Source: Pseudobdellovibrionaceae bacterium
Lineage (GTDB): Bacteria; Bdellovibrionota; Bdellovibrionia; Bdellovibrionales; UBA1609
Length of the DNA: 63,604 nucleotides
Reading direction: 5' to 3'
Assembly (NCBI GenBank): GCA_025354795.1
Contig: JANXMF010000081.1
Location: forward strand, 1 to 63,604
Both the position numbers and the translations under genes were made by a program. Shown here piece by piece: positions 9,899 through 24,078 of this stretch; the first letter of the stretch is position 1; each line of letters starts with the position of its first letter. The notes under the pieces were generated by a model, which did not search any database, was not told the DNA's origin, and saw only the letters and a list, made by a program, of their open reading frames with translations.

Positions 9899-10969
9899 CT
9901 ACCAGCTGCGCATGTAACCAATCTTTGCGCCAAGGAGTGAGGACTTAGTGTCCCACTTGTCGGTGATGTTACCGACCTGGCCGCTGATCTGAGCCGTGCG
10001 TAGGCGGTATTCCGCAAAAACCTGGATAATATTATGTTCGGTGACACTCCACTCGGCGCCGGCATCGCCATAATAACTGTAGTTGGATTTTGAAGTGAGG
10101 TAGCCGGAGTTGCCAAGGCCCGTTCCATAGTTGAAGCCGATGATGGCTTTGAATAAGAACTTGTCGGCAAAAGGTTCTTGGTAGTCGGCATTCACTCCAA
10201 TTATGATGTCTTGAACTTTGCTGAGATTCAAATTGGTGCTAGTGCCCTGCACGAAGTTGAGAATCGGGTAGCCCTCATTGCCGATCTGAAAACCAGGGCA
10301 GATTTTGCGGTAGTACGAAGTCTTGCCTATGTAACAATAATTTCCTTTCACCGAGTAGTCATCAAAGCTTGTAGTGGAGGCCAAAAACCTAAAAGGTAGC
10401 ACGACGCCGGCTTCCAGATTCATTGAGTAGTGCATGTAATCGAGTTCCATAGACCACAGCGGGTTGATTTGAATCCGGTAGCCCGTCCCTAGAGCCAGAG
10501 TGGGACTGCGGAAATTGTAAGTAGAGCCGCCGTAAGACCAACTTGAGGACAGGGTACTTGGCTTAACATAAAGCCCGGCTTGGTGTTTTGGATAGCCAGG
10601 GTAAGTCTTAAAAGCAACAGCGTCGGGGGTCGTCTCGGTATACTCGGGGCGGGGCGTGCCGGGGGCGGATTCGCCGGGGTCACTGAACTGCATCGCTGGG
10701 CGCGGGTCTGTCGGTGCAGGGGCAGAGTCAACGTTGAATTTCAAATATTCTGAGCTCGAGTTACTTTCCGGCGGCGTGCTGGTGGCTTTTTCCAGCGGCA
10801 TAGAGTCAGGAGCTTCGATCACTACAGGTGCGGGGGCCGCGGCTTTTTTCTTCTTCGCGGCTTTGGTTTTTTTCACCGGCGATGGTGCAGTAGGCGTCTG
10901 GCCCAATGCGAGCGGTGAAACCAAGAGTAGGCTGAACAGCAGCGCGAAGATGGATTTGCTTTGCAACAT
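9899..10969 (-). CDS. Outer-membrane beta-barrel protein with Pro/Ala/Lys-rich N-terminal linker
   Basis: Likely start MLQSKSIFALLFSLLLVSPLALG; barrel-like alternating sequence; C-terminus ends RSW. Confidence 0.6.
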   Translation of the reverse strand: MLQSKSIFALLFSLLLVSPLALGQTPTAPSPVKKTKAAKKKKAAAPAPVVIEAPDSMPLEKATSTPPESNSSSEYLKFNVDSAPAPTDPRPAMQFSDPGESAPGTPRPEYTETTPDAVAFKTYPGYPKHQAGLYVKPSTLSSSWSYGGSTYNFRSPTLALGTGYRIQINPLWSMELDYMHYSMNLEAGVVLPFRFLASTTSFDDYSVKGNYCYIGKTSYYRKICPGFQIGNEGYPILNFVQGTSTNLNLSKVQDIIIGVNADYQEPFADKFLFKAIIGFNYGTGLGNSGYLTSKSNYSYYGDAGAEWSVTEHNIIQVFAEYRLRTAQISGQVGNITDKWDTKSSLLGAKIGYMRSW

Positions 10970-11168
10970 TATGATTATGCCCCCGTGGATATTTGATAAA
11001 AGCGTAGCATCGGGGATCCATTCTTTCCAGCCTATACCACTGGTTGAACGGCCGGGCGAAAAATCTAGACCATTGTTTGAGTACGACAATTGCTCTTTGC
11101 AGATCCCCTTGTCTTTGTTACGATAAATGCAAAGTTCACCACTTGAACGGCGCCGGGAGGCTTCAACT

Positions 11169-11879
11169 ATGTTTATGCGACTTAGAATTCCACTGCTGCT
11201 AATACTGTCCGCACTGGCCGGCCCACTTGCGCAGGCCGAGCCGATGGAAATCTACTGCACCATTCGCAGCAGCGGCGCCAATCTCAATTGCCAGGTGACG
11301 GGCAAAGAGCGAAAAGTTATGAACGTCGAGCAAATCGGAAATTTCATTGATGCCGCCGAGGTCGCGTCCTACATCACCCTTAAGAGTCGCAAGGGAATGG
11401 AGCGCACTTACATGATCGACGCCCGCTCGCCGCAGTTTAAGCGCTTCAACGACGTGAAAAAATCGGCTTCGATCTCAGAAATTTCCAAGGCCAAGTCGGA
11501 TCTGTTCAATGAGATCGAAAGAAAAGTCATTAAAGTTTCTGACGACCTGGACGGGCAAGCCGGTGCGGCCGAGCTGATCCTGTACGATTCGTCCTTCACC
11601 TATGATAAGTTACGGCGTGAAAACCGCACCATGACGGCGGAGCTCGAAGGCTATCGCAACAACAAAGATAAAGTGTGCACCAACACTCCGGCGTTTGAAC
11701 AAATGTCTAAAGTGAAGTCGCATTTGCAACAGACGTTGTCTAATATTATATATGCTTTCCAAACGCCCGATACCTGCATGGCCGATTACAAGGTATTTAA
11801 GGATCGCGATGGTTCAGTGGATCTTCGCCAATTGGACACGATTACCGATCACTTTAAATCGAGCTGCAAAAAGCACTAA
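11169..11879 (+). CDS. Hypothetical secreted protein
   Basis: Signal peptide MFMRLRIPLLLILSALAGPLAQAEP; 236 aa from this start. Confidence 0.6.
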   Translation: MFMRLRIPLLLILSALAGPLAQAEPMEIYCTIRSSGANLNCQVTGKERKVMNVEQIGNFIDAAEVASYITLKSRKGMERTYMIDARSPQFKRFNDVKKSASISEISKAKSDLFNEIERKVIKVSDDLDGQAGAAELILYDSSFTYDKLRRENRTMTAELEGYRNNKDKVCTNTPAFEQMSKVKSHLQQTLSNIIYAFQTPDTCMADYKVFKDRDGSVDLRQLDTITDHFKSSCKKH

Positions 11880-11882
11880 AGT

Positions 11883-13856
11883 GTGCTGACGAAGAGACTT
11901 TCACCGCGGGCCCGCACGTGGCTCGCGTTACTAGCCACACTCACTCCCATTTTCATTGTTTATTTGGCGACCATATCCACCTTTGTGGGGGGGGGTGACA
12001 GCGGCGAATTGATCGTCGATGCCTTGCATCTGGCAGCACCCCATCCCCCCGGATATCCGACCTACACCTTTTTTGCGCATTGGTTTACGTATTTGCCAAT
12101 TTCCACCATGGCTTGGCGAGTGGGCTTTTTCTCGTTATGCGCTCAGATTCTCTGCGGTGCCGGTTTGTTTTTTCTGGGCAAATCTTGGCTAAAGAAAACT
12201 TGGCTGGCGGCGGCGGTCACTTTACTCTTTTGTCTTGCGCCTTTGACTTGGTATTTCGCGGTCGAGGCCGAAGTGTTCGCACTCAACAACCTATTTGCGG
12301 TGCTTCTGCTGTGCGCGTTTTACAAATACCACCTTGAGCGTACGCCCAAATGGGCCTACGTCACCTGTGGCGTGCTTGGGTTGGCCTGTACCCATCACCT
12401 CACCATCATTTTCTTTGCGGCTCCGTTTGTAGCGGTATTTTTTTGGCAGGATCGCAAAACCTTGCTGCGGCCGGGGGTTTTTCTAATTGGCGTTTTGTTT
12501 TTCGCGCTGGCTCTGACTCCTTATCTCTTTATGTTTTACCTGGGAAGACAGCGTTTATTGATCGCCTGGGGCGACTTGTCAAACTTCGAGGGCTTCTTAA
12601 CCCACGTGCTCCGGCGCGAATACGGCACCTTTCAGCTGGCCACCGGGGACAAGGAAAATTCGACTTTTCTACCCAAGCTTTATTATTTTGGCCGCGAAAT
12701 GCTGATTCAAACATTTTTTATCGGCAGCGTGCTTTGGGCGTGGGGCGTACTTTGCCTACGTAAGCGGGGAGAGCAAGCTGAGTTTGCGAGGCTGGTGGCC
12801 TTTGCTCTCGCATTTTATGTTTTGTTGTTTCAGTACCTGAGCAATTTAGACTTGAGTTTTTTATTGTTCTACCATGCCCAATCCCGCATGTGGATGTTGC
12901 CTTTGCTGTTGATCGTGCTCTTAATGGGCTGGGGACTGAGCAACCTCGAACAGCAGTGGCAGCACCTCACGCCGATGTTGGCCGCGGCCGTCGCTGTGGT
13001 TATTGCTACAAGTGTGGCCTGGAACTGGCGTCAACAGGACCGATCCGAGCGCGACTTTTTTTCGCGCCTTGGTCACGCGATGATCGACAACGTGGACCCC
13101 AACGCCGTCATCCTGATGCGTGAAGATGTTTACGTCAATACCCTCCGCTACCTCCAGTTCGCCGAGAACGTGCGGCCCGATGTCCACGTCATTCCGCTCG
13201 ATGCCATGTGGTGGCCCTGGATGAAGGAACTGGTGGAGGGGAACGTGCCAGGGTTCAAAGTGCCGGGTTTGGTTTTCCGACAGCGGGCCGATGGTCCCGG
13301 GCAGTATATTTTGAAGGATCTGTTGATGGCCAATATCGATCGATTTCCCCTTTACGTCGCTAAAGTTTATCCCTATGAAGAGCAACAGCTTCATGACGAG
13401 GTGAATGGTTTTTCTTTCGGTTTTCACTCACGGGTGAAGCGCTTTGGCCAGGATTTTTCATTGGAGGAGGTGAAGCGTGAGACTGAGGGGTTTTTGCAGC
13501 TCAAAATTCCAAGCCTCGCGGAACATCGTTTCGAGTCGTGGGAATCTTATGTTGAACTTAATTACTATGATACCAAGTTCCCGCTGGGAATACTGCTGAC
13601 GAGCCGCTCGAAGAACCGTGTGGACTGGCTGCTGCTGGCCGCCGAAGTCTTTGACGAGGTTGCCGAGAACAACGCGACCTACAGGTTGCAGTCGCTTAAT
13701 AATTTGGGCGCCATCTATGCATCGCTGATCCCCGTACTGCCGGCCTATAAAGCCCTGGCTGTGACGGCTTGGCAAAAATACTTGGCGTTGACTCCGCCCG
13801 GGAGCGAGGAAAACAAGACTGCAAGAGTGGCACTCGAACAGCTGGGGGCGAAATAA
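11883..13856 (+). CDS. DUF2723 (protein O-mannosyltransferase-like) multi-pass membrane protein
   Basis: 'GGGDSGELIVDALHLAAPHPPGYPTYTF' motif and GT-C-like multi-TM architecture followed by C-terminal soluble region. Confidence 0.8.
   Translation: MLTKRLSPRARTWLALLATLTPIFIVYLATISTFVGGGDSGELIVDALHLAAPHPPGYPTYTFFAHWFTYLPISTMAWRVGFFSLCAQILCGAGLFFLGKSWLKKTWLAAAVTLLFCLAPLTWYFAVEAEVFALNNLFAVLLLCAFYKYHLERTPKWAYVTCGVLGLACTHHLTIIFFAAPFVAVFFWQDRKTLLRPGVFLIGVLFFALALTPYLFMFYLGRQRLLIAWGDLSNFEGFLTHVLRREYGTFQLATGDKENSTFLPKLYYFGREMLIQTFFIGSVLWAWGVLCLRKRGEQAEFARLVAFALAFYVLLFQYLSNLDLSFLLFYHAQSRMWMLPLLLIVLLMGWGLSNLEQQWQHLTPMLAAAVAVVIATSVAWNWRQQDRSERDFFSRLGHAMIDNVDPNAVILMREDVYVNTLRYLQFAENVRPDVHVIPLDAMWWPWMKELVEGNVPGFKVPGLVFRQRADGPGQYILKDLLMANIDRFPLYVAKVYPYEEQQLHDEVNGFSFGFHSRVKRFGQDFSLEEVKRETEGFLQLKIPSLAEHRFESWESYVELNYYDTKFPLGILLTSRSKNRVDWLLLAAEVFDEVAENNATYRLQSLNNLGAIYASLIPVLPAYKALAVTAWQKYLALTPPGSEENKTARVALEQLGAK
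11987..11995 (+). repeat. G9 homopolymer inside the DUF2723 CDS
   Basis: ...CTTTGTGGGGGGGGGTGACAGC... encoding FVGGGDSG. Confidence 0.95.
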
Positions 13857-13882
13857 AAAACCCGGTTGGGACCGGGTTTTTT
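13855..13882. terminator. Rho-independent terminator, probably bidirectional
   Basis: AAAAAACCCGGT-TGGG-ACCGGGTTTTTTT between convergent genes. Confidence 0.92.
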
Positions 13883-13909
13883 TGAGCAACGATTTGACGC
13901 CGTGGCAGA

Positions 13910-16900
13910 TCAATCCGTATTCAAGCCGCGACTGACTTCGACCCAACCCAAAAATCCGTTAAGTGTGGTGCACATCAAGGTGAGTGTTGCCGGTTTTCCT
14001 AATGTAGTGACATAGTTGGTTGCCGTACCATTTAACAAGATTTTATCAGCGCCCATCCCTGCGGTAGTGGTGTCCACGAATGTAATCGTGAATGCTGCAG
14101 CGGCCGAGTTGAGTAGGAACGTGACGATTTGCCCCGGCTTGACCACGCCAGTGCTGCAACCTGTGATAGTCGCAATCGCGCCGGAGTTGGACCCGACGGA
14201 AAGTGACTGAACGTTTTGGCCAGTGGCTGCAAACGTTATGGCTGCTCCAACCGCAGTCGCGGCCGGAGTCGTGGTGTAGTAACCACCATTGGTGTTCACG
14301 CCGCTAAGTACGATGGCGCCACTGCTTTGAAATTGGATCAAGTCCGGGCTTGTCGCGCTCGAGGCGATACCGGCTTGCGAGAGGATATTGATGGAAGTGT
14401 TACCTGCACCGGACGAGCCAACGAATGTGGCTGTTGGTACCGTCGCAACCCCAGAACTTCCGGTCACCATAAACGTTTTGCCCGTTGTCTGGGTTGCTCC
14501 GCCGGATACACTTAATCCACCACCAGTTGTGATCGCACCGGCGCGAACCGCCAGAGCCATACCTGTGGTTGCCGCACTTGAGCCGACAATGGTCGCGGTG
14601 TTTGCGGTAGTTGCGGTACCACCACCAGAGACACTCATTGCGCCGGCAGTCGCCAGCGCGCCACCCGTAACGGCAAGAGCCACCCCGGAAGTTTGACCTG
14701 AGCCGCCGATAATATTCACGGTGTTGCCCGTAGTCTGCGAGGCGCTACTGGTGAAGCGTGCGACGTCGACGGTCGTATTGCTGCCACCGACGACACTCAA
14801 AGCGCCCGATGAAGCTCCTGCTCCGCCAGTGATGGCAAGAGCGACACCCGTTGTTTGAGCCGAACCACCGATAATGTTTACTGTGTTACCGGTGGTTTGC
14901 GCTGTTCCGGACCTAAACGATGCGGTGTCGACGGTGGTCTCCGAGTTTCCACCCATGACACTAAGGGCGCCAGCGGTTGTACCTGCACCGCCGGTCACTG
15001 CCAGCGCGACACCAGTGGTCTGAGCCGAGCCGCCGATAATGTTTATGGTGTTACCAGTGGTTTGCGCAGTCCCGGACCTAAACGACGCGGTGTCGACGGT
15101 GGTCTCCGAGTTTCCGCCCATGACACTAAGAGCACCGGCGGTTGTACCCGCACCAGCGGTGACCGCGAGTGCGACACCAGTGGTCTGAGCCGAGCCGCCG
15201 ATGATGTTCACGATGTTACCCGTAGTTTGTGACGCGCTTCCTGTAAAACGTGCGACGTCGACGGTCGTATTGCTACCACCGACAACGCTTAAGGCGCCTG
15301 ACGTGGCCCCTGCGCCGGCGGTGACCGCGAGTGCGACGCCAGTTGTTTGAGCTGAGCCGCCTATAATTCTAACTGTGTTACCGGTAGTTTGCGCAGTCCC
15401 GGACCTAAACGATGCGGTGTCGACGGTGGTCTCCGAGTTTCCGCCCATGACACTAAGAGCACCGGCGGTTGTACCAGCGCCCGCGGTCACTGCCAGAGCT
15501 ACACCAGTGGTCTGTGCGGCGCCGCCGAAGACGTTCAGAGTATTACCTGTAGTTTGCGCCGATCCCGACATAATTCTTGCGACATCCACGGTCGTTGCAC
15601 TGCTACCACCCATGATGCTCAAGGCACCAGCTGTGGTTCCTGCGCCGCCAGTAACAGCCAGAGCCACACCCGACGTGTGCGCCGAAGAACCTGTGATAGA
15701 GGCCGTGTTTCCGGTCGTAGCCGTGGTGCCACCCGAAACTAGAAGTCCAACCGCTGCGACATCAGTTCCTGGCGTGATCGATACGGCCGTGGCACTTGCG
15801 CCGTTACCGCCCAACACTTTGAGAGCATTGCCAGTTTGCGCCGCTCCACCGATTATGTTTACGGTATTTCCAGACGTCTGTGAAGCTCCAGAAACAAACT
15901 TGGCCACATCCGCCGTGGTTGCGGTACCGCCGCCGTTGACACTAAGAGCTCCGGCATTAGCTGCACCCGCCGCGACCGCAAGAGCCACTCCGGTTGTAGC
16001 AGCGCTTGAGCCAGTGATTCCGACTGTATTTCCGGTCGTTGCCGCCGTGCCACCGCCAATACTTAAAACACTGGTTGTCGTGCCGGTGCCTGCGTTGAGG
16101 TCAGCGGAGTCGTTGGCGCCCCCGGGAGTGATTGTCAAAGGAACTCCAGTTGCGCTTGTCATTGCGACGTTACTGGTGATTGAGGTCACGGCGGTGAGTG
16201 AAGTGATGTCTCCATTCGCGCCCGAGGTAGCGGCAGCCGTCCAGCTCAAAGTGCCGGAACCGTTGTTCTTTAAGAAGCCAGTGCCTTGGGCGGACGGAAA
16301 GGTGATCCCGTAAGTCGTAATAGCCGAACCACCGCTGATCGTCAGCGCGCCACTCGTACTTCCGTTCAATATGAGAGGATTGTTAAAAGCAGTGGAGGCG
16401 CCAGCAAGAGTCAGCGCGCCCGAGGGGTTTAGTGTCAGCGTTCCGGTTGGGTTAATTACCGCGGAGGCGCCCGTAATAGTCAGAGCGCCTGTGGGATTCA
16501 GAGTCAAAGAGCCAGTTGGAGTAACAGACATATTGCCCGGAAAACCCAAACTACTGATATCCGTGTTCGAGCCTTTAGCAGCGGCACCCAGAGCACCCAG
16601 AGAGGGTGTGCCCCAAGTCGGAGCGCCGCCGGCACCGGAGGTCAACAACTGGCCCGCAGTTCCCGCGCCAGAATTGCGCAACATGGTTCCATCTGAGTAG
16701 ACAATTCCACCCGCAGCTGCGGAAGCTAGAGTCAAGCTTCCGGTACCACCCTGATTGGCGGCAAGAGCCGTAGTGAGTCCAGTGATGACTAAGATGTCGG
16801 TGTTAGTGCCACGACCGGCGCCACCAAGAGCGGCGAGAGCGGCAGGGGCTGCGATTTGGCCGGTACCACCTTGAGCGATTGAAAGTGCAGTGGTCAAGCC

Positions 16901-19333
16901 AGAGAGTGAAGTGATATCGGTATTCGCACCGCGAGCGGCGGATCCAAGGGCTTGCAAACTGGGTTGTCCCCAAACCGGAGTGCCTGCACCAGCGGAGACT
17001 AGAACCTGCCCTGATGTCCCGACGCCGACATTTACCAATTTAGTACCATCGCTTGATACCATACCACCTGCCGTCACGGCGAGGGCGTTGTTGTTCGTAC
17101 CGCCTTCAGAAATCGGCAGTGCGGTGGTTAAACCTGTGAGCGACAATATGTCGGTGTTGGTTCCACGACCGGCGCCACCAAGAGCGGCGAGAGCGGCAGG
17201 GGCCGCGATTTGACCGGTACCACCTTGAGCAATGGAAAGTGCAGTCGTCAAGCCCGCAAGTGAAGTGATATCGGTATTCGCACCGCGAGCCGCGGATCCA
17301 AGAGCTTGCAAAGTAGGTTGCCCCCAGACCGGAGTCCCAGCACCAGCGGAGAGTAGAACCTGTCCTGACGTCCCGACGCCGACATTTACTAATTTAGTAC
17401 CATCGGTTGAGACTACTCCGCCTGCCGTGACGGCGAGTGCGTTGTTGTTCGTACCACCATTGGCGATGGGCAAGGTGCCGCTGACAGAGGAGGATAACGA
17501 AGCCGTAGTCCAAGATGTCACGCCGAAACCATTCGTCATTAAGATTTGGTTGGCCGAACCCGCACTCGAGGGAAGTTGCATGGTCCAAGACGTCGGATTG
17601 TTCGGCGACGTGATCGCCACATTGCCCGAGCCGTTGACTAGACTTAAACCGTTAGCATTTGTGAGTTGCACGAAGCCAGCACCGGTCGGTGCAAGGATTA
17701 CGTTTCCGGTACCGGATTGAATTGTGGTCGAGGACGCGCCACCGGTGTTACCAAATATCGATGCACCCGTGCCTGTGCCTCCCATAGTCATTAGACCCGA
17801 ACCAGTGGTGAGAACTGAGACCGCGCCATTAGCGCCCGTAGGATTAATATTCACTGTGGTTGTAGCTGCGCCACCGACAGAGAGAGTGCCGGTTGGATTT
17901 AAGCCGGTAATATCAGAGTTCGCGCCGCTGGCCGCAAGACCGGCACCAGACAAGGAAACCCAGGTCGGGGCACCTGCGCCGTTAGCTTGCAGAACGCGTC
18001 CGGCGAGGCCGGCACCGGTATTTTGAAGGCTGGTGCCATCGGTCCAAATGACTCCGCCGTTGGTAACGGGGAGTGCGGCGTTGTTGGTACCACCATGAGC
18101 GATTCCGAGAGTACTGGTAATGTTAGTGGGGTCTGATAAATCCACCAACTGCCAAGTGGTAGTTCCACTGCCGTTAGTTTGCATGAATTTTCCGGCTGTG
18201 CCGCCATTGGGAGGCAAAAGGAAATTGTAGGGGGCGGGGCCTGAGGGCGCATTCAGCGTGATGCTCGATCCACCATTGATTAAATTCAGACCGTTGGACA
18301 TAATCCGCACGAGGCCGACTCCGGCGGGAGATAGCAAAATGCCTCCGGTGCCGGACTGAATAGTATTCGAGCTCGCACCTCCGGCGTTACCAAAAAGGGT
18401 GTTTCCGCTCGAGCTCATGCTGCCGATGGAAACCACGCCGGTGCCGGTGCCTGGGGTCATTACGACGCCGCCGCTCGTGGTGCCAGCAGTAAAAGTCACA
18501 TCGCCACTTGCACCGGTAACGGTGCCAGTGATTCCCCCAGTTCCAGAGCGCAAGATGGCGCTAGCCGCACCGGAGTTATCACCGATCGTGGTCGAGTTTC
18601 CAGCTGAAGATTGATAAATTATAGACGTTGAGCCGGTGATCGAGCCAGTGGCTGAACCTGTACCACCATTGCCAACGCCGACTTGACCCGACAAGGAGGT
18701 GCTAGCAGGAAGCGGTGGAATCATGTTGAGCGCCACCAAACCACCCGCATCGGCCTGAACCAATTTGTTGGCGGCGCTGGCTTGAGTGTTGGCGTAAACA
18801 GTAGTTGCGTCGAGACCAGTGAAAGTTACGGAGCCGGCCTTAACACCTTTTGCGATCTCCGCGATCATAGCCGTGGGAACTGCGCCAATGACGATATCGT
18901 AACTGGGATTTGACCCATCAATGGCATCGCGAGCCACCACACGAACCATGATTTCGCCATTTCCACCGGCTAACAAAAGTGCCGCCCCGAGAGTAAAGCT
19001 TCCCGCGTTGGTATAGTTGCTGGCAAAGCCCGTACAGGCTCCGCAAGCTGTTAGATTCGCGCCCGCGCCGCTAAGGGCGGTGCTAAACACACCTAGTTTA
19101 ACGGGGGTGGCGACTTGAGTTCCCCACACCGCCACGTTGTTGACAAACACCCCATAAGCCATGTTGTAGCCAGAGGGGAATCCCGCCGCCGCACTATCCG
19201 TGACCGGCGTGTTATTGGCTTTGCGCAACAAACCCTGCACATTGAGTGTGTCTATCACCGGCGTGGCGTGTGCTATCCCACACAGACCCGAGAGGATCAC
19301 TGAAATGATGGTTAGGTGGTTGAGTGTTTTCAT
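13910..19333 (-). CDS. Giant modular repeat protein, phage-tail-fibre-like adhesin candidate
   Basis: 1807 aa; signal peptide MKTLNHLTIISVILSGLCGIAHA; repeated GGTG/GGTN fibre motifs; 55-aa tandem array; C-terminal 'GQIVTFLLNSAAAAFTITF...ATLTLMCTTLNGFLGWVEVSRG'. Confidence 0.85.
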   Translation of the reverse strand: MKTLNHLTIISVILSGLCGIAHATPVIDTLNVQGLLRKANNTPVTDSAAAGFPSGYNMAYGVFVNNVAVWGTQVATPVKLGVFSTALSGAGANLTACGACTGFASNYTNAGSFTLGAALLLAGGNGEIMVRVVARDAIDGSNPSYDIVIGAVPTAMIAEIAKGVKAGSVTFTGLDATTVYANTQASAANKLVQADAGGLVALNMIPPLPASTSLSGQVGVGNGGTGSATGSITGSTSIIYQSSAGNSTTIGDNSGAASAILRSGTGGITGTVTGASGDVTFTAGTTSGGVVMTPGTGTGVVSIGSMSSSGNTLFGNAGGASSNTIQSGTGGILLSPAGVGLVRIMSNGLNLINGGSSITLNAPSGPAPYNFLLPPNGGTAGKFMQTNGSGTTTWQLVDLSDPTNITSTLGIAHGGTNNAALPVTNGGVIWTDGTSLQNTGAGLAGRVLQANGAGAPTWVSLSGAGLAASGANSDITGLNPTGTLSVGGAATTTVNINPTGANGAVSVLTTGSGLMTMGGTGTGASIFGNTGGASSTTIQSGTGNVILAPTGAGFVQLTNANGLSLVNGSGNVAITSPNNPTSWTMQLPSSAGSANQILMTNGFGVTSWTTASLSSSVSGTLPIANGGTNNNALAVTAGGVVSTDGTKLVNVGVGTSGQVLLSAGAGTPVWGQPTLQALGSAARGANTDITSLAGLTTALSIAQGGTGQIAAPAALAALGGAGRGTNTDILSLTGLTTALPISEGGTNNNALAVTAGGMVSSDGTKLVNVGVGTSGQVLVSAGAGTPVWGQPSLQALGSAARGANTDITSLSGLTTALSIAQGGTGQIAAPAALAALGGAGRGTNTDILVITGLTTALAANQGGTGSLTLASAAAGGIVYSDGTMLRNSGAGTAGQLLTSGAGGAPTWGTPSLGALGAAAKGSNTDISSLGFPGNMSVTPTGSLTLNPTGALTITGASAVINPTGTLTLNPSGALTLAGASTAFNNPLILNGSTSGALTISGGSAITTYGITFPSAQGTGFLKNNGSGTLSWTAAATSGANGDITSLTAVTSITSNVAMTSATGVPLTITPGGANDSADLNAGTGTTTSVLSIGGGTAATTGNTVGITGSSAATTGVALAVAAGAANAGALSVNGGGTATTADVAKFVSGASQTSGNTVNIIGGAAQTGNALKVLGGNGASATAVSITPGTDVAAVGLLVSGGTTATTGNTASITGSSAHTSGVALAVTGGAGTTAGALSIMGGSSATTVDVARIMSGSAQTTGNTLNVFGGAAQTTGVALAVTAGAGTTAGALSVMGGNSETTVDTASFRSGTAQTTGNTVRIIGGSAQTTGVALAVTAGAGATSGALSVVGGSNTTVDVARFTGSASQTTGNIVNIIGGSAQTTGVALAVTAGAGTTAGALSVMGGNSETTVDTASFRSGTAQTTGNTINIIGGSAQTTGVALAVTGGAGTTAGALSVMGGNSETTVDTASFRSGTAQTTGNTVNIIGGSAQTTGVALAITGGAGASSGALSVVGGSNTTVDVARFTSSASQTTGNTVNIIGGSGQTSGVALAVTGGALATAGAMSVSGGGTATTANTATIVGSSAATTGMALAVRAGAITTGGGLSVSGGATQTTGKTFMVTGSSGVATVPTATFVGSSGAGNTSINILSQAGIASSATSPDLIQFQSSGAIVLSGVNTNGGYYTTTPAATAVGAAITFAATGQNVQSLSVGSNSGAIATITGCSTGVVKPGQIVTFLLNSAAAAFTITFVDTTTAGMGADKILLNGTATNYVTTLGKPATLTLMCTTLNGFLGWVEVSRGLNTD
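14480..16070 (-). repeat. Tandem array of about 165-bp (55-aa) units, with some 162-bp units, about nine copies
   Basis: Marker TGTCGACGGTGGTCTCCGAGTTTCC recurs at about 14926, 15091 and 15418 (spacings 165 and 327); 'TTGVALAVTxGAGTTAGALSVMGG' recurs in the protein. Confidence 0.9.
16801..17485 (-). repeat. Tandem duplication of a 354-bp (118-aa) fibre module
   Basis: Near-identical copies begin at about 16801 and 17155; protein 'ALAVTAGGxVSxDGTKLVNVGVGTSGQVLxSAGAGTPVWGQPxLQALGSAARGANTDITSLxGLTTALSIAQGGTGQIAAPAALAALGGAGRGTNTDIL'. Confidence 0.92.
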
Positions 19334-20281
19334 CTAGTGAGACCTCACTTCATTCGTTATGGAATTAAATCCGGTCAATAGGTCAAAGCTGGGGTTTGGT
19401 GACGTAGCCGTATTGCTGATGGTGGCCGCTGGATAGATATCCACCGCCGACTCTAGGGTTAGAGGACTCCCGCCACCGCTAGAGTCTGTAAAGTGTCCGC
19501 CCGAAATAACACCCGGGCCGATGAGATCCATAGCAGGAGTAAACTGAATAATTTTAGTGATGCCAGAGGAGATGTTGCCGGCCAAATCCACCGCGCGGAA
19601 AGTGTTGGACACTTGACCGCCTGGAATCAAGGTTACAGTGTAAGTCCAGGCGCCAGCCGAGCAGGCAATGGGCACGAGGGCATTGGGTCCATTGATATGG
19701 TCCACGTCAACCGCGCAAGTGCCGGTGATATCCAGGGTCGCATTCGAACCGGTGTAGGTATAGGTCGCTGCGCCCGCCGACGGCGTCGAAATCACCGGAG
19801 TCAGAGGGGCCACGTTGTCAATGTGCACGTTGAAAGTCTTGTCTGAGCCGGTGATGATCGCGCCGGTCACATCGTAAGCGGTGGCGGTCAAAGTTTTGTC
19901 GGCATCTAAAGGGCCGGTGAAAGATTTACTCCAAGTGAAGTTGCCGTCCTCGGGGCAAGTCGCAATCTCGGCAAAGAGTGTACCGCCTTCACTGAATTGA
20001 ACGGTGTCCACGCCGCGGGTGCAGACACCTGAGACTGTGACGTCGAGACCTAAAATATAGGTACGGTTGCTTGCGATAATAGGGGTCCAGCTGGGGCCAG
20101 CCGCGGTGGGATAGACTAAACTAATCGTTACGGTTCCGCCCGCAACGCTGGTACCGCCGCCGGCCGAAATTCCACCGCCGCCAGTACAAGACAAAGTCAC
20201 AAGACTCGCAAATAGCGACATCAGTGTGGCTCGCACCTGGTGATTCCGCACAAAAGTTTTATAGCCTTTCAATCTCATCAT
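19334..20281 (-). CDS. Lipoprotein with Ig-like domains
   Basis: Lipobox LVTLSC followed by Gly-rich linker; repeated 'NVHIDNVAPLTPVIS...LDITGTC...WTYTVTL' Ig-like pattern; immediately upstream of the fibre gene. Confidence 0.7.
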   Translation of the reverse strand: MMRLKGYKTFVRNHQVRATLMSLFASLVTLSCTGGGGISAGGGTSVAGGTVTISLVYPTAAGPSWTPIIASNRTYILGLDVTVSGVCTRGVDTVQFSEGGTLFAEIATCPEDGNFTWSKSFTGPLDADKTLTATAYDVTGAIITGSDKTFNVHIDNVAPLTPVISTPSAGAATYTYTGSNATLDITGTCAVDVDHINGPNALVPIACSAGAWTYTVTLIPGGQVSNTFRAVDLAGNISSGITKIIQFTPAMDLIGPGVISGGHFTDSSGGGSPLTLESAVDIYPAATISNTATSPNPSFDLLTGFNSITNEVRSH

Positions 20282-20291
20282 ATTTTCCTAA

Positions 20292-21602
20292 TCAATCGCC
20301 GTAGTGGCCGCAGTCGCGTTTAATGAAAACTGAGGAGCCAGTGCCATTTAAAACTTCGACCCAACGACTACCGTGGTCTTTGGCCAAAAGCCGTTTGCCA
20401 GAGCCAAAAAAGCCCGCGGCTTCTTTCGCACCGGGTTTGCCAAAAGCATTGCAATTTTTGTCGGTGATCCAAATACGTCCGCCGTCCACCAAATGCGATG
20501 CTTCTTCGGCAGCCGCGAGACCGCGCGCTTGATGGCGCACTTTTTCAGCCCTAAACGATTTTTGGTCGGAGCCCTCGACCGTGCTGGTGAGAGCGCTGCG
20601 TGCGGTCTCCAGTGCCAACGAAGACTTCAACACCAGTCCGTCGGTATTGGTGCTTTGTTCGATGCTTTGATCGCGGCTTTCTTTTAAGCGCGAAGCATAG
20701 TCTTTAATTTTCAAGACTTCCGATTCGAGACGGATATTTTCAGCCTCATTGCCGATGCGTTTTTTATTGGCGGCCAAAATATCGGATTCATAACGGGCAA
20801 CGTCACCTTGTACTTTGCGGCTGGTGTCGTTGCGGCCTTGCTCGGCTTTGGCTAGATCCTGTTTCGATTGCGTCAGTTCCTTTTGCGCTTGCTCAAAACG
20901 TTTCTTGGTTTCCGCGAGTTGCGCCAAGGCATCGTCACGTTGGCGCATGTGCTCGGCCGCGGCCATTTTGGTTTGCACCCACTCGGCGCGCACCTTCATT
21001 TCATCCGCGTCAAGAGCCGCGCGTTTGGCTTCGGCTTCTTGCACCCGCGTTTCACCGCGGGCAATTTCGTTGCGGAAGCGCTCGATGTCCATGGCCATGG
21101 TGTAAACTTCTCGCTCGGCCTTTTGGCGAGTGGCCGCTAGGGCGGCGAGTTCTTCGGTCAATGCTTTTTGTTTAGCCGCGAGTTCGGTGCGTTGGGTCTC
21201 CAAATAATAAAGAGTGGCTTTGCTGGATTCCTGGAGCTGTTGATGTTCGGCCTGATACGAGGAAAGGTCGCCATTGACATGTTGTAAGTCCACAGCCAAG
21301 AGATCGAGTTCGCTTTGCGCTTTCTCCTGGCGCATTTTCAAGCCTTCGATTTGAAAACGGTGATTGGCCACTTGGGTTTCGACATCGCGGCGTTGTTTTT
21401 CGTAGAGATCGCGATCTTGAACCGCCTTTTGCTCCATGTCTTCGGCTTTCTTCTGCTCAATTTGCTGCTGATTGTAGATTTGGACCAATGAAGCTTCAGG
21501 GTAGTATTTGGCTTTGATGGCGTCGTTCTGAGCAAACGCTGCTGAGCCACTGCCCAACACCATTGCGCCAATCAAGGCTTTCAGATTTCGCAGGTGGTTC
21601 AT
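20292..21602 (-). CDS. Periplasmic coiled-coil protein with C-terminal SH3-like domain
   Basis: Signal peptide MNHLRNLKALIGAMVLGSGSAAFA; about 300-residue coiled coil; C-terminal 'LLAKDHGSRWVEVLNGTGSSVFIKRDCGHYGD'. Confidence 0.65.
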   Translation of the reverse strand: MNHLRNLKALIGAMVLGSGSAAFAQNDAIKAKYYPEASLVQIYNQQQIEQKKAEDMEQKAVQDRDLYEKQRRDVETQVANHRFQIEGLKMRQEKAQSELDLLAVDLQHVNGDLSSYQAEHQQLQESSKATLYYLETQRTELAAKQKALTEELAALAATRQKAEREVYTMAMDIERFRNEIARGETRVQEAEAKRAALDADEMKVRAEWVQTKMAAAEHMRQRDDALAQLAETKKRFEQAQKELTQSKQDLAKAEQGRNDTSRKVQGDVARYESDILAANKKRIGNEAENIRLESEVLKIKDYASRLKESRDQSIEQSTNTDGLVLKSSLALETARSALTSTVEGSDQKSFRAEKVRHQARGLAAAEEASHLVDGGRIWITDKNCNAFGKPGAKEAAGFFGSGKRLLAKDHGSRWVEVLNGTGSSVFIKRDCGHYGD

Positions 21603-21868
21603 GTCTTGTTTCCCTTTCGCCCACAGAGTTCTCATGTCTCCCTTTCGGCCATACATATTGGCGGCTTGAGTCTAGGGTGTAGGAATGAGTCAAGGTTTCG
21701 AACAGTTGACGCTGGTCGTGTAAAACTGGAGCGTGCGGCGAACGCATTTATTTGAACTGACGACTGGCGACCGCCTAATTCACCGATACATATTAAGAAC
21801 TCTTAATTGAATGGATTCCGGGATAGAGCTATGGTCTACCACTAGGACTTTCGCCGTGGAGACCACTT

Positions 21869-22834
21869 ATGAAACATAATGCTTTATCCAAGCCTCTGGT
21901 ATTTTTGCCGAATCTCATTTTGATCATGGGTCTCGGCGCGTGTCGTTCGAATCCAAATAAAGCCGAAGCGATACAGACCCAACTCGACCAACCGGCAGCA
22001 GTGAGTAGCGGTCAAAATGTTGGTTTGAAATCCGGCGAAATGGTGGTCCTGAGCAAAGTGCAAATTTCCGAGCGCTTGCGCGATCTGCAGAATGCGGTTT
22101 ATTCGCTCGAAGATCGCGTTTATGGCACGCGCAAACTCGGGAGCCTGGGTTTGTACGGTGATCTTAAAAGTTGCATGCGGCGCAATGCCTCCCATCAATA
22201 CGGTGGGAGCGGAACTTTGGTTTGGACCGAACCGCTCGACCGGGTCACTGATAAGGAAGACGATCTGAAATTGGGTCTCGACGAGAAAAAGGACCTGGTC
22301 GGGGTTTCTGAAGAGTACCTAAAGGATCGGCTACAGCGTTTTCAGGGCTACAAAATGATATTGCAAAAGCGCAGCGATGAGTTTGAGGAAAAGATCGAGC
22401 AATGCAAAGCGGACCTCGCAACCAAGACCCAGGATACCTCGCAGTCCAGTAAAGTGATGGTCAGTGAGGCACCCAAGGTTACCCAAGACAAAGCCGCCAT
22501 TAATACTTATATGTGTAGCTACGTGCGGCCCGGGGCGAGTCTGAGGACACTGATGATGAACGCCTTCGCTCACGGTTGGCTGTCGCTCTCCGATTTTAGT
22601 TTAGATCAGAATCTTTTGGGCGGCTCGGCTAAAGATGTGAAAGGCGAAACCAAAACTAATGCATTTTTATTTAGTGGTTGGAAATTGGCCTTCGATTCCG
22701 CGCCGATCACCGTGGGCCAGCTACTCGACGAAGGCAAGGATGCAAAATTGGTCGCCTGGGTTTATGATCACAAGGCCGAGGTGTCTCGGGCCGCAGCGTG
22801 CCTGCCTCAGCCCGAAGGCGTTTGGAATCATTGA
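21869..22834 (+). CDS. Hypothetical lipoprotein
   Basis: Signal peptide with lipobox LGAC; 321 aa. Confidence 0.6.
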   Translation: MKHNALSKPLVFLPNLILIMGLGACRSNPNKAEAIQTQLDQPAAVSSGQNVGLKSGEMVVLSKVQISERLRDLQNAVYSLEDRVYGTRKLGSLGLYGDLKSCMRRNASHQYGGSGTLVWTEPLDRVTDKEDDLKLGLDEKKDLVGVSEEYLKDRLQRFQGYKMILQKRSDEFEEKIEQCKADLATKTQDTSQSSKVMVSEAPKVTQDKAAINTYMCSYVRPGASLRTLMMNAFAHGWLSLSDFSLDQNLLGGSAKDVKGETKTNAFLFSGWKLAFDSAPITVGQLLDEGKDAKLVAWVYDHKAEVSRAAACLPQPEGVWNH

Positions 22835-24078
22835 GGCGGGTCGGACCGCAAATCCGTTAGCGTTTTCTCCAGACCTTCCACTCGCAATATTTTTGCCTCG
22901 CCGGAATCCAGGAGCTTGCATTGGACCTCGCCCCGCGCCCATTCATCGGGTCCTACCACCACTGCCGCCCAACTGTTTTGCCCGGCCGCGCGTTTCATAC
23001 GTTTCGACAGATTGCCAGAAAACCCAATTTCACAGGTTAAACCCGCGGCCCGCAAACGATAACAGAGTGCAAACGCTTCGGCTTCCATTGAACCATGCAC
23101 GGGAATGACTGCCACCGGCCTGGTTTTCACCCCCTCCAACGGCGAAAGTAGAGCCAGGCGTTCCACTCCCGCTGCCCACCCAATGCCTGGAGTCGCAGGT
23201 CCACCCATGGTCTCGATCAACTGGTCGTAGCGCCCGCCCGAAAGCAAAGCATCTTGCGCGCCCAGAGCGCTCGATTTGAATTCAAACACGCAGTGCGTGT
23301 AATAATCGAGGCCGCGCACCAAAAATGGATTGAGATGAAATTTCAAACCCAGTGCTTGCAAAGAATTGGTCACGGTCGATAAGAATTCGCGACTGGTGTC
23401 GTTGTAATAGTCGGAAATTAGCGGCGCATTTTTAAGCAGCGCGCGATCGCCCTCGTCCTTGCTATCGAGAATACGCAGCGGGTTCAGGCCGAGGCGCCTT
23501 TGACTGTCGGCAGAGAGCTGAGTGTGGTGCCGGGTCAGATACTTGACCAGACTTTCGCAGTAGCGCGCGCGACTCTCAGGATCGCCAATGGAATTGATTT
23601 CCAGTTGTGCTTCAATTTTCAAGCCGCGCAAAATTTCAAACGCGAGAGTCAGGCACTCGACGTCGGCATAGGGCGACGCTACGCCAATGAGTTCCGCGCC
23701 AAGCTGATGAAACTGCCGCTGACGGCCCTTCTGTGGTCGCTCGTAGCGAAACATCGGGCCCGCGTAATAAAGTTTCAGTGGAGTTTTCTGGCTTAAACCC
23801 TCGGAAATAAACGCGCGCGCGATGCCTGCGGTGCCTTCGGGACGCAAGGTCAGCTCTTCACCATTGCGGTCTTTGAAGGTGTACATTTCCTTGTTGACGA
23901 TGTCGGAGGCTTCGCCCAGCGTACGCTTGAACACTTCGGAAAATTCGAATATGGGTGTCGACATTTCATGAAAGCCGAAGCGTGCAGAAATCGATCTCGC
24001 GCACTCGACGATCATGTTATGCTTGGCTTGGGCTTCGGGCAAAAGGTCTTGGGTGCCTCGGACACTTTGTAATGACAT
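22828..24078 (-). CDS. hisS: Histidyl-tRNA synthetase
   Basis: Class II aaRS motifs 'VRGTQDLLP', 'LRPEGTAGIARA', 'YYAGPMFRYERPQKGRQRQFHQLGAE', 'LSGGRYDQLIE'. Confidence 0.95.
   Translation of the reverse strand: MSLQSVRGTQDLLPEAQAKHNMIVECARSISARFGFHEMSTPIFEFSEVFKRTLGEASDIVNKEMYTFKDRNGEELTLRPEGTAGIARAFISEGLSQKTPLKLYYAGPMFRYERPQKGRQRQFHQLGAELIGVASPYADVECLTLAFEILRGLKIEAQLEINSIGDPESRARYCESLVKYLTRHHTQLSADSQRRLGLNPLRILDSKDEGDRALLKNAPLISDYYNDTSREFLSTVTNSLQALGLKFHLNPFLVRGLDYYTHCVFEFKSSALGAQDALLSGGRYDQLIETMGGPATPGIGWAAGVERLALLSPLEGVKTRPVAVIPVHGSMEAEAFALCYRLRAAGLTCEIGFSGNLSKRMKRAAGQNSWAAVVVGPDEWARGEVQCKLLDSGEAKILRVEGLEKTLTDLRSDPPQ

Follow-up and report, generated by a model that had tools for sequence, protein, structure and literature searches.

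A modular MAT-like fibre gene of a Pseudobdellovibrionaceae bacterium and the adjoining lipoprotein gene proposed to encode its anchor

The locus analysed here raises the question of what kind of surface fibre is encoded by a reading frame of 1807 codons, and by what the base of such a fibre might be held on the cell. The window, that is, the whole stretch of DNA that was analysed, comprised 63,604 nucleotides. An earlier note, made from the letters of the sequence, had taken the frame for a secreted trimeric adhesin comparable to the MAT proteins of Bdellovibrio bacteriovorus. Our results partly supported this reading, and the main finding was the conserved gene neighbourhood of the fibre, which had been missed there.

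Layout of the fibre and its phage-type modules

The long secreted frame was confirmed on the minus strand, with the ATG at 19333 and the stop at 13910. Its signal peptide ended in an A-x-A site (MKTLNHLTIISVILSGLCGIAHA followed by TP), which was also present in most relatives. The fibre gene and its parts were as follows.

13910..19333 (-): secreted modular fibre protein of 1807 aa, MAT-like, without S74 domain
19265..19333 (-): Sec signal peptide, residues 1-23 (AHA followed by TP), assigned by inspection
18818..19264 (-): base domain at the N-terminus (residues 24-172), remotely homologous to the N-domain of MATs
16766..17473 (-): two tandem GGTN/GGTG modules of 118 aa each, phage-tail-fibre type, residues 621-856
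14414..16111 (-): T/G/A-rich repeats of ~14 residues with a higher period of 55 aa, residues 1075-1640
13913..14266 (-): tip at the C-terminus (residues 1690-1807), an orphan by all searches made

The base domain (about residues 24-172), which was followed by the first stretch of the shaft, and the tip (about 1690-1807) were non-repetitive. The two 118-aa modules (621-738 and 739-856) were followed by a half module, and the large repeat region noticed before was found again as about 560 residues of ~14-residue repeats. The GGT[GN] motif occurred 8 times, with a mean of 2.1 and a maximum of 9 in 2000 shuffles, and its count alone was rejected as evidence since it was only mildly above composition. 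The repeated GGTG/GGTN blocks of the earlier note were nevertheless upheld by the longer motif 'G-A-N-T-D-I-T-S-L' (5-6 copies versus about 0 in shuffles) and by the DNA repeats of the gene (354 bp x 1.9 at 90%; 165 bp x 4.4). The two module copies were identical at 109/118 positions of the protein and 303/354 positions of the DNA, and their codons showed 35 synonymous and 9 non-synonymous differences, which implied that the module protein was under constraint and was not a random repeat. No meaningful Pfam or NCBIfam match was obtained in whole-protein scans of the fibre, and the S74 domain (PF13884) was absent from it in the Pfam scan; the S74 genes of the same genome were located elsewhere than the fibre locus. 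AlphaFold2 single-sequence models made without alignments had pLDDT values of 32 for the base and 38 for the tip, too low to be informative.

The module region matched a tail fibre of PHROG 11393 (E 1.4e-11), the SU10 phage tail fibre in PDB 7z47 (8e-4), an Acinetobacter phage tail protein, and 19 viral contigs of IMG/VR with a best identity of 62%. The best viral match was an ORF with '...TGTLPIANGGTNNNALGVTDGG...TPTWENPP', located after recognisable phage tail genes. The shaft motifs '...GANTDITSLTGLTTALSIAQGGTG...' and 'LPIANGGTNNN...G.PVW' were the same in the fibres of PHROG 11393 and PDB 7z47 and in the fibre of the window. These matches bore out the modules that had been called phage-tail-fibre-like, and supported the view that they are of the genuine phage-tail-fibre kind. 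The sequence in common covered only part of the shaft, whereas the fibre of the window carried in addition a signal peptide and a bacterial base domain and lay at a chromosomal bacterial locus. A tail fibre of a prophage or tailocin, or a degraded remnant of one, could account for modules 62% identical to a phage ORF, but it would not be expected to carry a signal peptide, to be syntenic across two families, or to show mostly synonymous codon differences between its repeat copies. No phage or prophage tail operon was met around the fibre and no phage genes were recognised among the ORFs of the window that were scanned, which were housekeeping and envelope genes; this neighbourhood already argues strongly against such an origin, which we consider hardly credible.

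Homologues of the tip were searched for in phages, the PDB, the order and IMG/VR, and none was convincing; two matches in the order (E 0.004-0.008) were taken as noise.

The base domain and the MAT superfamily

The MAT superfamily of Bdellovibrio bacteriovorus, including its NS74 group, has been described (PMC10769870). As a reference set we used S74 MAT proteins from two Bdellovibrio-like genomes, G048 and G053, which, together with G081, were taken to be Bdellovibrio from their 17-23 MAT genes. In an hhalign comparison of the base domain, homology to the MAT N-domains was found over 134 colinear columns (Prob 94.1, E 1.3e-7). With the signal peptide removed, Prob was 59.6 and the score was 33.4, whereas none of 60 column shuffles scored above 18.3. 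When the profile comparison was restricted to the 14 MAT bases of highest similarity, it was not significant (Prob 0.7), and significance arose once divergent MAT subtypes were included. The MAT base 'TYQGRILKSDGTPLEYNNVSF...GVFDVPIG.G...IRSVPFA..A..A' aligned end to end with 'VQGYMKKANNTAVSDGTY...NGLFS..LTGAG...DI.I.SVP.A..A..A' of the window family. Profile A9, built on the window family, directly matched MAT-type proteins of G003:C24 (2.2e-8), G050 (1.1e-5) and G070 (3.9e-5), which were also recognised by the MAT profile A10; the window protein itself was not among the A10 matches at E<=0.01. On the basis of the profile comparison and the A9 cross-matches, the fibre was placed in the MAT superfamily, where it would represent a divergent branch lacking S74, related by remote homology at the profile level.

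Like MATs of the NS74 group (PMC10769870), the fibre had a signal peptide followed by a homologous base domain of ~130-150 aa, a long repetitive shaft, a variable C-terminal tip, large size and phage-fibre-like modules. The domain of ~130 aa directly after the signal peptide was recognised by profile-level homology, and its beta-rich nature in the window protein is putative. Six relatives shared residues ~1-175 (to ~230 in G029) and differed in shaft and tip, so that one end was conserved and the other diversified. Unlike MATs, the fibre had a base of only remote similarity, a coupled lipoprotein gene and a five-gene block, and its tip matched none of the solved MAT tips, whereas a control search with a classical MAT did find them. 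The MAT comparison drawn before thus held at the superfamily level, through the remote homology of the base, and failed for the classical type, since the protein lacked S74, had a divergent base and was coupled to a lipoprotein gene. The length that had been called unusual was not so, as related MAT-type open frames reached about 1800-4000 aa. With the trimeric autotransporter adhesins of the YadA type the fibre had in common that it was a long, secreted and repetitive protein of a diderm bacterium; it differed from them in that Pfam showed neither an anchor nor a head domain of the YadA type, and in its proposed anchoring, which would be N-terminal and through a separate lipoprotein.

Two candidate observations were set aside. 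The capping-loop motif of MATs was uninformative, because the reading of it that was used also failed on 19/19 control MAT ORFs, and a weak N-domain match in G056 was rejected, with housekeeping genes in its neighbourhood.

In the Bdellovibrio-like genome G081, 22 MAT-type base domains were present, with open frames of up to about 4000 aa. At L161:2866-7394 (G000:C180, about 13865-18393), three tandem ORFs of 494, 524 and 490 aa combined a type IV prepilin N-terminus (N_methyl, 2e-4 to 5e-6) with a C-terminal phage-type S74 chaperone domain, as pseudopilin-tail-fibre chimeras, and a similar chimera (GFGLIE plus S74) was found in G006 (L118).

The lipoprotein gene and the conserved block

The fibre gene was accompanied by four further genes of a conserved block.

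19334..20281 (-): 315-aa Ig/FnIII-like lipoprotein, proposed cognate anchor; its stop codon immediately precedes the ATG of the fibre gene
20292..21656 (-): exported coiled-coil protein of 454 aa, SH3-like at its C-terminus; its gene is the first in a three-gene unit
9899..11089 (-): predicted outer-membrane beta-barrel protein
11127..11879 (+): 250-aa exported protein, the best conserved member of the block (51-60% identity)

The lipoprotein gene was directly upstream of the fibre gene with a gap of 0 nt, and the coiled-coil/SH3 gene followed 10 nt beyond it. In 59 related genomes, the fibre base, the lipoprotein and the coil each gave a convincing match in one common set of three (G000, G003 and G029) and in no others; for the lipoprotein, two partial matches within large proteins came up as well. 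Profile searches added the pair in G081, G074 and G095, then in G305, G311 and G353, and weakly in G087. The lipoprotein gene was immediately upstream of the fibre gene in 10/10 genomes, which belonged to several families across the phylum, with a lipoprotein match of E 7e-18 or better in nine of the ten, the tenth (G087) being weak. As judged by a pattern, not by a trained predictor, a lipobox was present in all nine lipoproteins with a complete N-terminus (9/9 evaluable) compared with 9.5% of background ORFs.

The beta-barrel and 250-aa genes lay in the same block as the pair in G000, G003, G029, G081 and G074, and in G095 these two and the coil gene were found about 10 kb from the pair on the same contig. 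The less complete genomes G119 and G082 contained the 250-aa and coil genes without the pair, with the barrel only partly evident, so that the trio may serve an independent function. Such a block of an outer-membrane barrel, a periplasmic coiled coil and an exported protein could also belong to an envelope-spanning machine, gliding or TonB-energised, of which the fibre would be the adhesive part that grips a substrate and not prey, with the lipoprotein and the 250-aa protein among its components; a TonB_C-family protein beside the coil gene in G029 and G095 fits this. We consider it improbable, given that no TolQ/R-type motor proteins or known Glt homologues were identified and no TonB-like gene was recognised by Pfam among the scanned neighbours in the window. 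The TonB_C-family genes adjoining the coil genes were located at L102:4348-5187 and L201:9624-10475.

Together with those of its five nearest relatives, the fibre of the window gave a series of 438, 456, 457 (G095), 516, 1085 and 1807 aa, and these six syntenic proteins had the base in common and differed in shafts and C-termini. A secreted matrix or surface-layer polymer, in which the repeats serve as structural spacer and no receptor is bound, would suit the extreme T/G/A repeat content and a tip without known relatives, but is very unlikely in view of the modular layout of base, shaft and tip and the exchange of tips among the syntenic relatives.

To see whether lipoprotein genes also adjoin other MATs, the upstream neighbours of 60 MAT-type genes were surveyed in three Bdellovibrio-like genomes. 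A lipoprotein gene lay next to and upstream of 0/45 classical (YQGR) MATs and 8/15 divergent MATs, a difference with a hypergeometric estimate of about 3e-6 that ignores relatedness and rests on classes defined after part of the data had been seen. The ends of the divergent MAT and lipoprotein genes mostly overlapped by 4-8 nt, and these lipoproteins, about 95 or 190 aa long, differed in size and sequence from that of the window. A lipoprotein upstream of a MAT-type gene also occurred in G090, G059, G121, G070, G355 and G072. Two other MAT-type genes were detected by profile in the genome of the window, and the second MAT-type gene (G000:C88) is probably paired likewise, as a 247-aa ORF with a VGC lipobox that the search pattern had missed lay upstream. 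These upstream genes suggest that divergent MAT bases have cognate lipoproteins as partners. The classical MATs, which are the best studied experimentally, had no neighbouring lipoprotein gene, which implied that an adjacent anchor lipoprotein is not a general need.

The last point, together with the homology of the base to MATs and the frequency of lipoproteins in these genomes (the 9.5% of ORFs given above), would agree with an ordinary divergent MAT/NS74 adhesin that is only co-regulated with the lipoprotein and the other neighbouring envelope genes and does not partner their products physically. We regard this as rather unlikely, because the genes are separated by 0 nt here and overlap by 4-8 nt elsewhere, all ten loci of this base type are paired (one weakly) in several families, and in other MAT subtypes this position is taken by lipoproteins that differ in size and sequence.

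Proposed anchoring and display of the fibre

From the observed sequence architecture, homology and gene pairing, the best explanation, to which we give a probability of roughly 0.55, is a MAT-like fibre anchored by a co-translated lipoprotein, with block partners and a binding tip. The chain would be exported by Sec, trimerise along its repetitive shaft and be displayed with its base at the outer membrane, where the co-translated lipoprotein would bind the base and thereby anchor the fibre. The outer-membrane beta-barrel and the coiled-coil/SH3 protein may act as partners in translocation or cell-wall docking. The exchangeable tip would bind a surface, with a glycan of prey or of some other cell as the likeliest target, and the shaft may grow and shrink through tandem duplication. 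Prey recognition by the fibre is plausible by analogy with MATs; the presence of only two other MAT-type genes in the genome was counted against a firm reading of a predatory lifestyle.

In the 2024 MAT paper (Caulton et al., PMC10769870), a surface element for the fibre base was postulated and the anchor was left unidentified; neither lipoproteins nor operons were mentioned in its main text. Judging from sequence, we propose that the lipoproteins are cognate outer-membrane anchors of MAT-type fibres. More tentatively, and at somewhat under even odds, a dedicated co-translated lipoprotein may dock each non-classical MAT fibre on the outer membrane across Bdellovibrionota, with several apparently unrelated lipoprotein families doing one job, and the five-gene block of the window may be a complete fibre-display apparatus. 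If this is true, the dedicated lipoproteins would be the element postulated in that paper (PMC10769870). The conserved lipoprotein-fibre gene pair offers a concrete and testable anchor candidate, and a single syntenic locus shows the diversification of the fibre from 438 to 1807 aa.

Two further genes of the window were observed. The gene set HisS-cyclase-dioxygenase-aldolase had its match in L004, a named MAG of Bdellovibrionales, which places the genome in a Bdellovibrionales-like order. At 22828-24078 (-), HisS had its best relatives outside Bdellovibrionales mostly in Alphaproteobacteria (about 50-59% identity), so an old transfer is possible; the contigs reached by the HisS search contained no block genes. 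At 11883-13856 (+), a TMEM260-like protein O-mannosyltransferase (PF11028, 5e-18) was convergent with the Ser/Thr-rich fibre gene, which makes glycosylation of the fibre possible. The O-mannosyltransferase gene was not at the corresponding place in G003 or G029, and in G095 a large polytopic glycosyltransferase-like membrane protein (L174:5861-7639) was encoded convergently with the fibre.
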